A stretch of 55,266 bases of DNA from a virus: positions 1 to 55,266 of IMG/VR virus record IMGVR_UViG_3300008108_000110; one strand, 5' to 3'. Numbering within the stretch: position 1 is the first letter of the stretch; every line of letters starts with the position of its first letter. Below are positions 11,105-46,803 of this stretch, one piece after another. Below the pieces are notes generated by a model. It was not told the origin of the DNA. It made no database searches and was given only the letters and a program-made list of their open reading frames with translations. A program made the translations under genes and the position numbers.

Positions 11105-11204
11105 TATGTAACTCAGGCTCGCCACCAATTCTTTGTCTGGAAATTGGAAACCAGGCGGGAGAGAGTCCCATCCGCACCAGCAAGAATATTTAAAGTGCCT
11201 TATC

Positions 11205-11753
11205 TTACGGGCACCAGGAAGACCATTTTTTAGATTTGCTATAAATTCTATTAGCAACTTCCATTTTAGTCATATTATAGTGTTCCATAATAGATTGGAT
11301 GCCAACATACTCTTTACCATCAACTATAAAAATTTTTTTTGAGGGTTTAACAAAATTTGAAATTCTTTTATTTCTTTCTTCTTCAGAAAGAGAATCCCAA
11401 TGCTTTTTTACAGAGTGTTTGATATTATCTTTATGTTCTTCAGTAATGACTTGTAAAGGTCTAACTTTTTTTAGTTTTTTGCTAATTTTTAGTTTATGTT
11501 CTTCACTTAATGGAGTTCTTCCTTTACTTCCACCACTTTTTCTGTTTAAAAGATTATCTAATATTGATATTAGATATTTTTCGTGTTTTAATGCATCCTC
11601 TTCAGAAAGGTTTTTCTTCAAAAATAATATTTTATCTTTGGTGGGTCTTGGAACATTATGATTTTTATGAAATGCTCTACGACCAGTTCCCTTTCCTATG
11701 TAATATGGTGTTCCATTTTCACGAAGATATGCATATGTGTAATAGGTCTTCAT
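11205..11753 (-). CDS. GIY-YIG homing endonuclease with NUMOD3
   Basis: 182 aa. The GIY-YIG domain is at the N-terminus: YTYAYLRENGTPYYIGKGTG (residues 5-24) with the second-motif Tyr and Arg following (RRAFHKNHNVPR), and the metal Glu probably in KHEKYLISILDNLLNRKSGG. A NUMOD3 DNA-binding element (KGRTPLSEEHKLKISKKLKK) follows at about 76-95. This is the architecture of free-standing homing endonucleases of T4-like phages. It stands alone between the glycan operon and the tRNA island, with its own late motif and terminator, and may have moved the neighbouring DNA. Confidence 0.85.
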   Translation of the reverse strand: MKTYYTYAYLRENGTPYYIGKGTGRRAFHKNHNVPRPTKDKILFLKKNLSEEDALKHEKYLISILDNLLNRKSGGSKGRTPLSEEHKLKISKKLKKVRPLQVITEEHKDNIKHSVKKHWDSLSEEERNKRISNFVKPSKKIFIVDGKEYVGIQSIMEHYNMTKMEVANRIYSKSKKWSSWCP

Positions 11754-12379: not shown

Positions 12380-12452
12380 TGCTCCTTGCGTGGATCGAAC
12401 ACGCCTCAGGCGAATTATGAGTTCGCTGCATTCACCAGATTGCTAAAGGAGC
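12380..12452 (-). tRNA. tRNA with CAU anticodon (Met or Ile2)
   Basis: Cloverleaf: 7-bp acceptor GCTCCTT/AAGGAGC with discriminator A, anticodon stem GCGAA/TTCGC with loop CTCATAA (anticodon CAT), T-arm GCGTG/CACGC with TTCGATC loop. No CCA is encoded. Elongator Met and lysidine-modified Ile(AUA) cannot be separated by eye. Three bases separate it from the tRNA-Ile-like element upstream. Confidence 0.85.
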
Positions 12453-12455
12453 GAT

Positions 12456-12526
12456 GGGAATACTGGGAGTTGAACCCAGACTAAGCCCTTATAAGGAGCC
12501 CGCTCTAACCATTAAGCTATACACAT
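12456..12526 (-). pseudogene. tRNA-Ile(UAU)-like element with broken acceptor stem
   Basis: D-arm (GCTT..GAGC), anticodon arm GGCTC-CTTATAA-GGGCT (anticodon TAT) and T-arm CTGGG-TTCAACT-CCCAG are intact, and the 3' acceptor strand is TATTCCC plus A. The expected 5' strand GGGAATA is absent; the DNA there reads ATGTGTA and is coding sequence of the Phd-like gene. Only about three acceptor pairs remain. The 5' half of the tRNA forms the last codons and stop of that gene. Probably a tRNA cut by gene insertion or recombination. Confidence 0.6.
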
Positions 12527-12716
12527 CTTCATCCACACCAGAATCATTCAATATATCTACTACTTCTCTATATGGGACTATAACTGCGTTACCTTGCTCG
12601 CTAGTTATAATAAAAGATTCGCCTTGTTCTACTCTATTCATTAAATTATCAAAATCCGATTGAAACTCTTCGACTGTAAATTTTTGGAGATCTGAAATTT
12701 CTGAATACATTTTCAT
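12489..12716 (-). CDS. Phd/YefM-like antitoxin domain protein
   Basis: 75 aa. Residues about 12-53 (KFTVEEFQSDFDNLMNRVEQ, then GESFIITSEQGNAVIVPYREV) match the Phd/YefM DNA-binding antitoxin fold, whose N-terminal half binds operator DNA and whose C-terminal tail neutralises the toxin. No toxin gene is adjacent. The last 12 or so codons overlap the tRNA-Ile-like element. ATG at 12716 or 12710 are both possible. An orphan phage antitoxin could counter a host toxin; this is inference. Confidence 0.7.
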   Translation of the reverse strand: MKMYSEISDLQKFTVEEFQSDFDNLMNRVEQGESFIITSEQGNAVIVPYREVVDILNDSGVDEDVYSLMVRAGSL

Positions 12717-12733
12717 AAAGTGAGGTTTATGAG

Positions 12734-12807
12734 TCGGGGTGACAGGATTCGAACCTGCGACCTATTGCTCCCAAAGCAACCGCGCTACCAAGCTGCGCTA
12801 CACCCCG
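12734..12807 (-). tRNA. tRNA-Pro(UGG)
   Basis: Acceptor CGGGGTG/CACCCCG with discriminator A, anticodon arm with loop TTTGGGA (anticodon TGG), T-arm GCAGG-TTCGAAT-CCTGT. No encoded CCA. It starts 1 nt after the stop of a 38-codon ORF and 15-25 nt downstream of a near-consensus promoter. Confidence 0.95.
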
Positions 12808-15064: not shown

Positions 15065-15147
15065 CGGAAAGAACAGGAATCGAACCTGCGAGGGCGTTAA
15101 CCCCAGCCGCTTTCAAGGCGGTGTCCTCGACCAACCGGACTCTTTCC
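15065..15147 (-). tRNA. tRNA-Ser(UGA)
   Basis: Acceptor GGAAAGA/TCTTTCC with discriminator G, anticodon arm ACCGC-CTTGAAA-GCGGC (anticodon TGA), class II long variable arm, T-arm GCAGG-TTCGATT-CCTGT. No encoded CCA. Confidence 0.95.
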
Positions 15148-15157
15148 ACTAGAAGGT

Positions 15158-15441: not shown

Positions 15442-15618
15442 TTAGTCTCCATCTCCACCGTCACCAGATCCATCATCCCCATTTCCTCCAGCACTCGATG
15501 AAGAACGTTTTGCCATCGCTCTACCAGCACCTATATTAGTGACTTTTCCTTTGTTATAAACCTTATGAGGTTTAGCCATACTATAGGCAATTTGTTTAAA
15601 CTGTTTGAAAGTTTTCAT
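15442..15618 (-). CDS. Small protein with MKTFKQF N-terminus, 58 aa
   Basis: Start chosen at ATG 15618, which shares ATGA with the stop of the Dps-like gene; the frame extends further but inside that gene. N-terminus MKTFKQFKQIAYSMAKPHKV is basic and resembles T4 capsid-targeting leaders (MKTYQEFIAEA), though it lacks the Glu for gp21 cleavage. The C-terminus is Gly/Asp/Ser low complexity. Could be an internal head protein or a Dps accessory; undecided. Confidence 0.55.
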   Translation of the reverse strand: MKTFKQFKQIAYSMAKPHKVYNKGKVTNIGAGRAMAKRSSSSAGGNGDDGSGDGGDGD

Positions 15619-16049
15619 TGGAGATGTGCTCTTAACTGCCAAACAAATTTACCGTGAGATTCCATTAAATCTTGAACTAGATTAGCAGTAGAATATGACT
15701 TTTGTTCTTCTGCTTCTTCGGAAATTTCTCCCATCAACTCACAAAACTTTTCGTTGTTTTCAAGAAGTTCTTGAAGCATTTCTCTTGCTCCAGTTGAACT
15801 TGCAGCCTCTTTGATTTGAGTTACCTCAAGCATTCTAGAGAGAGAACTGAGAGGTTTTACATTCAAGTAACGCATATGTTCTGAGAGACGATCAATCTCC
15901 TCAAACATAGTTTCATACTGACCACCAAAGAGTTGATGAAGTTGAGTAAAATCTTCTCCAACAACATTCCAGTGAAATGCCCAAGTTTTATGGAATAAAA
16001 CAAAAAGCGATGACTGAGCATCACTTAGTAGTTTATAAAGTTTTTCCAT
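15615..16049 (-). CDS. Dps/ferritin-like protein
   Basis: 144 aa from the ATG at 16049 (MEKLYKLLSDAQSS); the longer frame runs back through tRNA genes and is not real. The sequence AFHWNVVGEDFTQLHQLFG (about 24-42) and EEIDRLSEHMRYL (about 50-62) match the Dps signature hWNvxGxxFxxLH...DxxAER, which holds the ferroxidase site. Dps dodecamers oxidise iron with peroxide and protect DNA. Late motif 18 nt upstream of the start. Cyanophages are known to carry Dps-like genes. Confidence 0.75.
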   Translation of the reverse strand: MEKLYKLLSDAQSSLFVLFHKTWAFHWNVVGEDFTQLHQLFGGQYETMFEEIDRLSEHMRYLNVKPLSSLSRMLEVTQIKEAASSTGAREMLQELLENNEKFCELMGEISEEAEEQKSYSTANLVQDLMESHGKFVWQLRAHLQ

Positions 16050-44410: not shown

Positions 44411-44596
44411 TCAGTTTGCCAACTGGTTCCTTAATTTATCAAGATAATCACCAGTAGCAATACGACCAATATATCCTGGATAATATTTATCCACAAGTGC
44501 TGGAATTGCCATAGCACTAATACTGTTATTACATCTAATCCATACTTCTTTAGTATCGCATTTTACTACGTGTTCAAGTGGAAATTTGGTTTTCAT
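44411..44596 (-). CDS. Small hypothetical protein, 61 aa
   Basis: MKTKFPLEHVVKCDTKEVWI then RCNNSISAMAIPALVDKYYP. Coupled by ATGA to the vWA protein. No domain recognised; may be a small partner of the AAA+/vWA pair. Confidence 0.6.
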   Translation of the reverse strand: MKTKFPLEHVVKCDTKEVWIRCNNSISAMAIPALVDKYYPGYIGRIATGDYLDKLRNQLAN

Positions 44597-46803
44597 ACAA
44601 CTAAAGAAATAAACTCACCTAGAACTTTTTTATTTAGTTTTTTGGTTTTAAGAGACTTAACAAAAGCAGATTTAATCTGAGACTTAGTTGCACACTCAGC
44701 AACTTCAAACTCAGTATCCTGAGAAAGTGCAGTGGCAGACATTCCAAAATATGCATCATAACCAGATTTAGTGATAGTAAAACTCTTTAGTTTCTTCCAA
44801 TCACTTTGGATTTTCTCATATTCTTTATCATTATAAGAGTGATACATTTGCACAAACCTGCTCATATTGCGACCTTCGAGAACACGAATACCGATGAAGT
44901 TTGTAGTGGAAAACTTATCCTTTAGATTTTTGAGTAGAACATCGGTGAATTCATGATACCCATACCCAAACCTATAAGTAGTTCCCAATTTTCGATCACG
45001 AAGAAATGTACTCATTGGATGAATATATCCAGTTCCAAGACGAGGTTCTTTTTCCCAATGGCGAATTACTTCTTTATGGTGAACAAGTTGATTTGCTTCA
45101 CCGTCAGTAAGAACAATACATTGAACTTTCTGAAGTTTATTTTCCTTTTGAAACTTAGGAAGAATTTGATGAAGAGTAATGAGTGCCTCATTCAAGGGAG
45201 TTCCAGAAAGACTCATACGATTAGAATAAGTATATGAACAACGATATGGATTTTCAAAACAAAAGGCAAGACGCCAAATATTAAGCATCTGATGTTCTAG
45301 AGCACCACCAGAAACTTTACTGGTAAGAATATTCATCATTGAAAATGTCTCATCTACACAAATTAAACCATCCCGTTTTTTGTAATGAGGAGTTCGATCT
45401 GCAGCGAGATAACGGTCATTCTCATAATCATACTCACCACGACGCCATTCGCTAGTAAAAGCATAAACCTCAAAAGGAATAGAAACTTTCTTGCAGAACC
45501 AAACAAGGTTAAAAAGTTGCTTGCAAGTATCAAGCATCACATCAGCCATAGATCCGCTCCAGTCCAGAACAAACACCAGACCGTGATTCTTACCATCAGG
45601 AATTACAGAAACTTTCTTGAACAAGTCTTCATTGTACTTGTAAGTATGCAGACGAGTGGTATCAAGAATACCAGTACGAGCAGTTGAAGCACGAGAATAC
45701 TGATCTGCTGCCTTACGACACTCAAACTCTTTAACAAGATAATTGACTTCTTTCTGAGCAGAGGACTTGAGCTTCTTAAATTCTGTATCAGATTCTTTAT
45801 AGATATCACGAGTTGGTACTTTCTGTGTATTTGCAGCATTGTTGTAAATTTTTTGTTGATGATTAAAAGAATCATCAATGTCTTTATGAACATCGGAGTT
45901 TTTACCGATAATTGTGTTCAAATTTACTTCAGGAATTTCAATATAAACATTTTCATATCCATCAGCATTTACAAGATCCTTAATTTTATCTTCAAAAGAT
46001 TCTGCAGTCCGAACTTCTGGATCTTCATCTTTTTTATTTGATTCGAAGTTAGTTTGATCTCCCTGAGCAGTTCCACCATAAGATTCATCAGGTTGTTGTG
46101 GTTGAGATTGACTATCACCTTCTTGTTGTTCGGATTGAGAGTCATTATTCTCAATCATTTCATTTGCAGGAGACTGGGAATTTCCTTGCATTTCGTGCGA
46201 ATCAAAATCAGCAACCTTTTGTTGTTCATTTTCTTTCTTGCAATACTTGTAAAGTTCTTCAGCGGCAATCAAAGTGTCTACAAAACTTTCGCAAGCACCA
46301 ATCAAATTAACAAGTTCTTGTTCTTCAGGTTTGAAGTCTATGTTAATAAAGTTACCAATCTTGTAGTAAAGATTAACACGGTCAGCAAGATTAAAAGTAG
46401 AGATATCGTCATCAGCAACTTGGAAGAAGTCTTCTTCATTAAGTTCTTTATATCCATTGAAGAAAGTCTTGGCAAGTCCAGCATACTTTCTTTTCATTAG
46501 TTTCTCGATACGAACATCCTCAACCACATTCACAAACTGAGAAGGAACTTTTACCTTTTCAGTCCAGTCCTCATCAGGAGTATAAAGAGCATGACCTACT
46601 TCATGACCCACCAAAAGATCATATACAACACCGCTTGCCTTTTCCCACAAAGGGAGAGTCAGAACGCGAGTATGAACGTTAAAGCAAGCAGTGGGAACTT
46701 TTTTATGCTCTACCACGAGATCTTCAGTGGCAAGCAGTTTAGCAAGTTGAGATTTGATTTCGTGGCGAATTGGCATTGGATGTGTTTCGTATGCAAATAT
46801 CAT
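44593..46803 (-). CDS. HExxH metallopeptidase-like/vWA (CobT-like) protein
   Basis: 736 aa. HEVGH at 67-71 in LLVGHEVGHALYTPDED is a zinc-protease-type HExxH. A long acidic Gln/Ser/Asp region (about 205-270) follows. C-terminal von Willebrand A domain with MIDAS FVLDWSGSMADVMLDT (about 415) and TDGEANQ (about 570). CobT of cobaltochelatase has a similar vWA end. Partner of the AAA+ gene. ATPase-plus-vWA modules remodel protein complexes; the substrate is unknown. Confidence 0.75.
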   Translation of the reverse strand: MIFAYETHPMPIRHEIKSQLAKLLATEDLVVEHKKVPTACFNVHTRVLTLPLWEKASGVVYDLLVGHEVGHALYTPDEDWTEKVKVPSQFVNVVEDVRIEKLMKRKYAGLAKTFFNGYKELNEEDFFQVADDDISTFNLADRVNLYYKIGNFINIDFKPEEQELVNLIGACESFVDTLIAAEELYKYCKKENEQQKVADFDSHEMQGNSQSPANEMIENNDSQSEQQEGDSQSQPQQPDESYGGTAQGDQTNFESNKKDEDPEVRTAESFEDKIKDLVNADGYENVYIEIPEVNLNTIIGKNSDVHKDIDDSFNHQQKIYNNAANTQKVPTRDIYKESDTEFKKLKSSAQKEVNYLVKEFECRKAADQYSRASTARTGILDTTRLHTYKYNEDLFKKVSVIPDGKNHGLVFVLDWSGSMADVMLDTCKQLFNLVWFCKKVSIPFEVYAFTSEWRRGEYDYENDRYLAADRTPHYKKRDGLICVDETFSMMNILTSKVSGGALEHQMLNIWRLAFCFENPYRCSYTYSNRMSLSGTPLNEALITLHQILPKFQKENKLQKVQCIVLTDGEANQLVHHKEVIRHWEKEPRLGTGYIHPMSTFLRDRKLGTTYRFGYGYHEFTDVLLKNLKDKFSTTNFIGIRVLEGRNMSRFVQMYHSYNDKEYEKIQSDWKKLKSFTITKSGYDAYFGMSATALSQDTEFEVAECATKSQIKSAFVKSLKTKKLNKKVLGEFISLVV

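Follow-up and report, generated by a model that had tools for sequence, protein, structure and literature searches.

An ordinary deletion probably joined an antitoxin gene to a tRNA-Ile(UAU) remnant in a T4-like cyanophage

Results

The window, the whole 55,266-nucleotide stretch of DNA analysed here (IMG/VR record IMGVR_UViG_3300008108_000110, a genome fragment), derives from a T4-like, Kyanoviridae-like cyanophage. The surroundings of the locus (tRNA cluster, wcaG RNA and nucleotide-sugar epimerase) match those of the Kyanoviridae phage S-SM2, in which the order tRNA-Pro, phd-like antitoxin, tRNA-Ile, tRNA-Met is also annotated. The features of the locus are given below; L001 denotes the contig IMGVR_UViG_3300008448_002388 (9970 bp), cited together with L081 for its identity to the window.

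12733..12807 (-): tRNA-Pro(UGG), intact, called by ARAGORN and Rfam upstream of the antitoxin gene; belongs to the conserved order tRNA-Pro, phd, tRNA-Ile, tRNA-Met
12489..12716 (-): Phd/YefM-like, apparently orphan antitoxin ORF of 75 aa, 3'-truncated, from PHROG, Pfam and the comparison with L001
12521..12522 (-): deletion junction, at which 158 bp of L001 (3196-3353) are absent, from the alignment with L001
12455..12526 (-): tRNA-Ile(UAU) remnant, from ARAGORN, Rfam, acceptor pairing and folding
12380..12452 (-): intact tRNA(CAU), called tRNA-Met, directly downstream of the tRNA-Ile remnant, from ARAGORN and Rfam; in the conserved order

The ORF runs from 12716 to 12489 (-) and ends in EDV-YSLMVRAGSL-stop. 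It had been proposed to be Phd/YefM-like, and this assignment is borne out by matches to PHROG 375 (E 1.8e-12) and to Pfam PhdYeFM (PF02604; E 6e-5), though the latter, at 23.2 bits, falls below the curated cut-off of 29.8. Residues 1-65 are native and identical to those of L001; the last 10 are tRNA-coded. The codons of YSLMVRAGSL and the TAA stop are part of the tRNA: they extend from the acceptor strand's end into the anticodon loop, of which the TAA forms the 3' end. On this overlap, described in the original prediction as an ORF running into a tRNA-Ile(UAU)-like element with its stop in the anticodon loop, ARAGORN, Rfam and the ORF coordinates agree. Of the three frames that can be read into the tRNA past the join, one stays open for 10 codons, so the new residues need no explanation: YSLMVRAGSL is a chance reading of one frame, not acquired by special recombination.

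ARAGORN places the tRNA-Ile(UAU) at 12456-12525 (-), and the Rfam tRNA model matches 12455-12526 (-) with 45.9 bits (E 7e-8; gathering cut-off 29 bits), compared with 65.3 bits for the intact L001 counterpart. By both programs the D, anticodon and T arms are retained together with the UAU anticodon, and in the Rfam alignment mismatches and non-standard pairs all fall in the acceptor stem. Nucleotides 5-72 are native and identical to those of L001 and of a second relative, L002; nucleotides 1-4, AUGU, come from the antitoxin gene. The tRNA has indeed lost its 5' acceptor strand, as had been supposed: AUGUGUA opposite UAUUCCC forms 4/7 pairs, with 1:72, 2:71 and 4:69 unpaired, whereas the stem is paired 7/7 in 18/18 measured tRNA-Ile genes, that of L001 included. 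The native strand is nevertheless not the expected GGGAATA, for relatives have GGGAGTA. The cloverleaf is not the minimum-energy fold of the remnant, at -16.9 kcal/mol versus -24.5 kcal/mol for the intact tRNA. Judging from these pairing and folding properties, the remnant is probably neither matured and processed nor charged. ARAGORN finds no further tRNA-Ile(UAU) within the 55-kb window, itself a fragment of a genome, in which AUA accounts for 17% of isoleucine codons. The adjacent tRNA(CAU) at 12380-12452 may instead be a tRNA-Ile2, decoding AUA once modified with lysidine, and if so would compensate for the lost tRNA-Ile(UAU).

Elsewhere in the window, a ferritin-like (Dps-type) gene lies inside the tRNA cluster (15615-16049; Pfam E 1.5e-22). 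A tRNA-Ser(UGA) at 15065-15149 reaches just 30.4 bits in Rfam (scored in the identical L001; cut-off 29) and may be degenerate. Upstream of the nucleotide-sugar epimerase gene, the wcaG RNA motif (11111-11216, 78.4 bits) overlaps the terminal part of a small ORF (11205-11753) that gives a weak GIY-YIG-like signal. An intein suspected in the ORF at 44593-46803 was rejected, as this is an ordinary phage peptidase family (phrog_459).

L001 and the window match at 100% identity for 9699 bp to one side of the junction and 114 bp to the other, with 0 differences in 9.8 kb, and L001 carries 158 extra bp exactly at window position 12522 (L001 3196-3353). These 158 bp encode the last 11 codons of the antitoxin, IRIYTDHEEGS, with a TGA stop (L001 3196-3231), and contain a complete tRNA-Ile(UAU) gene (L001 3271-3342, 52.2 bits) and the start of a second tRNA-Ile. 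The view that the window joins an antitoxin gene to a true tRNA-Ile(UAU) gene is upheld by the whole versions of both in L001. The more distant relatives L002 (86% protein identity) and L003 likewise have the native tail and its stop, with an intact tRNA-Ile at the corresponding position. On the strength of these alignments, relatives with both genes whole show the window to represent the derived state and the event to be a deletion, because they keep the tail and stop, the intact tRNA-Ile and the tandem tRNA-Ile arrangement. Microhomology at the junction amounts to 1 bp, the G at 12522, which fits either side; no longer direct repeat and no inverted repeat bridging the deletion was found.

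The original prediction had held that a recombination at a tRNA gave the antitoxin its C-terminus, and had named relatives with the same ORF but no tRNA-like 3' end as telling against this. Relatives carry just that, their native tail and stop preceding an intact tRNA, and a deletion of 158 bp in one allele takes the place of the proposal. Given microhomology of 1 bp, no tRNA-specific recombination is needed.

Antitoxin relatives are encoded at 70 IMG/VR loci, 68 of them with a complete gene, and 63/68 complete relatives possess the native tail, typically IRIHTDHEEGS, which in its L001 form (IRIYTDHEEGS) is missing from the fused ORF. Variability in the tail codons is 0.35 at the third position versus 0.08 at the first and 0.06 at the second, as in the protein core, a pattern indicating that the tail is under purifying selection. 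In these orphan cyanophage Phd-like antitoxins, the dozen residues before the tail vary freely and the tail itself is strikingly conserved. From this conservation, IRIHTDHEEGS is likely a functional part of the antitoxins. Phd/YefM antitoxins contact their toxin through the C-terminal part; since the fused ORF has lost the conserved tail in this part, its neutralising activity is probably reduced.

An AlphaFold model of the intact L001 protein has moderate confidence (mean pLDDT 71.6), with the tail below 50; its best PDB matches in Foldseek are P1 Phd (3hs2) and YefM (prob 1.00, TM(target) ~0.8, best E 3.9e-3). Sequence searches against solved structures returned no credible relative, and no relatives in cellular genomes were confirmed.

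In five contigs the antitoxin is followed by a tandem of two different tRNA-Ile(UAU) genes: L001 and, again with an intact antitoxin, L102, L120, L121 and L134. The first tRNA-Ile(UAU) type occurs in 49 viral contigs, 29 of which have an antitoxin gene just upstream. Further fused proteins suggested by tblastn matches to residues 66-75 (L004, L033, L043 and others) were discarded, as these alignments continued past the stop codon and into the tRNA.

Three toxin families were searched for, ParE/RelE-type (PF05016), YoeB (PF06769) and Fic/Doc (PF02661), and none was found in the window record, a fragment, or in five relatives that include the complete genomes S-SM2, S-TIM5, DSL-LC02 and Bellamy. 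For these families, the earlier statement that no toxin is nearby stands. The family looks like one of orphan phage antitoxins, and the result would fit orphan antitoxins directed against toxins of the host. By analogy, an anti-toxin-antitoxin (anti-TA) function of the intact family against host toxins is plausible; the fused allele of the window is a poor anti-TA candidate, because it has lost the conserved tail.

Discussion

We consider it highly probable that a recent 158-bp deletion joined the stumps of the antitoxin and tRNA-Ile genes, and that the chimera is an ordinary deletion scar, not a new device. In the ancestral state, an orphan Phd/YefM-like gene would have lain between tRNA-Pro and tRNA-Ile(UAU) in the tRNA cluster. 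An illegitimate joining would then, very recently, have deleted 158 bp, and with them the last 11 codons and stop of the antitoxin, one whole tRNA-Ile(UAU) and the 5' end of the tRNA-Ile(UAU) behind it. Both genes would probably have been damaged, the antitoxin without its conserved tail being weakened or dead. A point against this reading is that the junction lacks the 5-10 bp direct repeats by which published deletions of phage tRNA regions are bordered.

With 0 substitutions in 9.8 kb, the deletion is either very recent or an artefact. The second reading, in which a chimeric molecule from library preparation or a mis-joined contig produced the junction and the phage is really L001-like, is distinctly less probable, though it deserves weight before any other alternative. 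It draws on the otherwise complete identity of L001, on the repeat-like nature of tRNA genes and on the end of the L001 contig 114 bp beyond the junction, where assembly was perhaps difficult. The junction was also found in no other contig searched: two junction patterns had no match in other viral contigs, which is weak evidence as records very near the window fell outside the search. However, the 1 bp common at the junction is too little for an overlap-based collapse, making pure assembly collapse unlikely, and the window contig runs on for many kb on either side. Assemblers need reads spanning a join.

Should the deletion be real, it seems improbable that it was selected, as an adaptive escape variant in which the tail swap or the loss of tRNA-Ile alters the encounter with a host TA system or a tRNA-cutting defence. 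Still harder to credit is an adaptive fusion, in which recombination at the tRNA supplied a new C-terminus able to neutralise another host toxin and the tRNA remnant is dispensable. The frame does stay open past the join, the part replaced is the established toxin-contacting part, and with no toxin family detected in cis the target would be a toxin of the host. But one frame in three is open that far anyway, the strongly conserved native tail is missing, and the fusion is known from one allele only, as the sole change in 9.8 kb, with no sign of time for selection. An old, conserved overlap, with the tRNA maturing from the antitoxin mRNA, is next to negligible: the genes adjoin in many relatives, often with 5-7 nt between the end of the ORF and the tRNA, yet in every other relative with a detected downstream tRNA-Ile(UAU) the ORF stops before it, which refutes an ancient overlap. 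Co-transcription of the neighbouring antitoxin and tRNA genes is possible.

On the favoured reading of a recent deletion scar, the fusion matters little in itself, and illustrates how a convincing, probably meaningless gene-tRNA chimera can arise by deletion in a phage tRNA cluster. The window allele also provides a naturally occurring deletion of the tail against a background that is otherwise identical.

Orphan antitoxins are known from related phages. Cyanophage S-CREM1 has three orphan antitoxin genes (YefM, TacA and MazE), proposed to counter host TA systems (PMC9964418); compared by description only, these too are antitoxin genes in a T4-like cyanophage, but unlike the window gene they are described without any tRNA fusion (PMC9964418). 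The PHROG 375 Phd-like antitoxins of cyanophages S-SM2, S-TIM5, Bellamy and S-PM2 resemble the window ORF in residues 1-65, and the S-SM2 gene occupies the same genomic place, between tRNA-Pro and tRNA-Ile/Met; the window copy differs in its tRNA-coded end, without the IRIHTDHEEGS tail of the IMG/VR relatives. With the cyanophage tRNA-Ile(UAU) next to phd, the window shares nucleotides 5-72, whereas the first four acceptor nucleotides are replaced and the stem is broken. Deletions at tRNA clusters have a precedent in T4-family Serratia phages, in which 21/24 ToxIN escape mutants had lost 6.5-10 kb of a tRNA-rich region in spontaneous deletions, with the 5' border mostly inside a tRNA gene and flanking direct repeats of 5-10 bp (PMC5449768). 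The window likewise comes from a T4-like phage and has one deletion border inside a tRNA gene, but its deletion spans 158 bp rather than 6.5-10 kb and is joined at 1 bp rather than at repeats of 5-10 bp.
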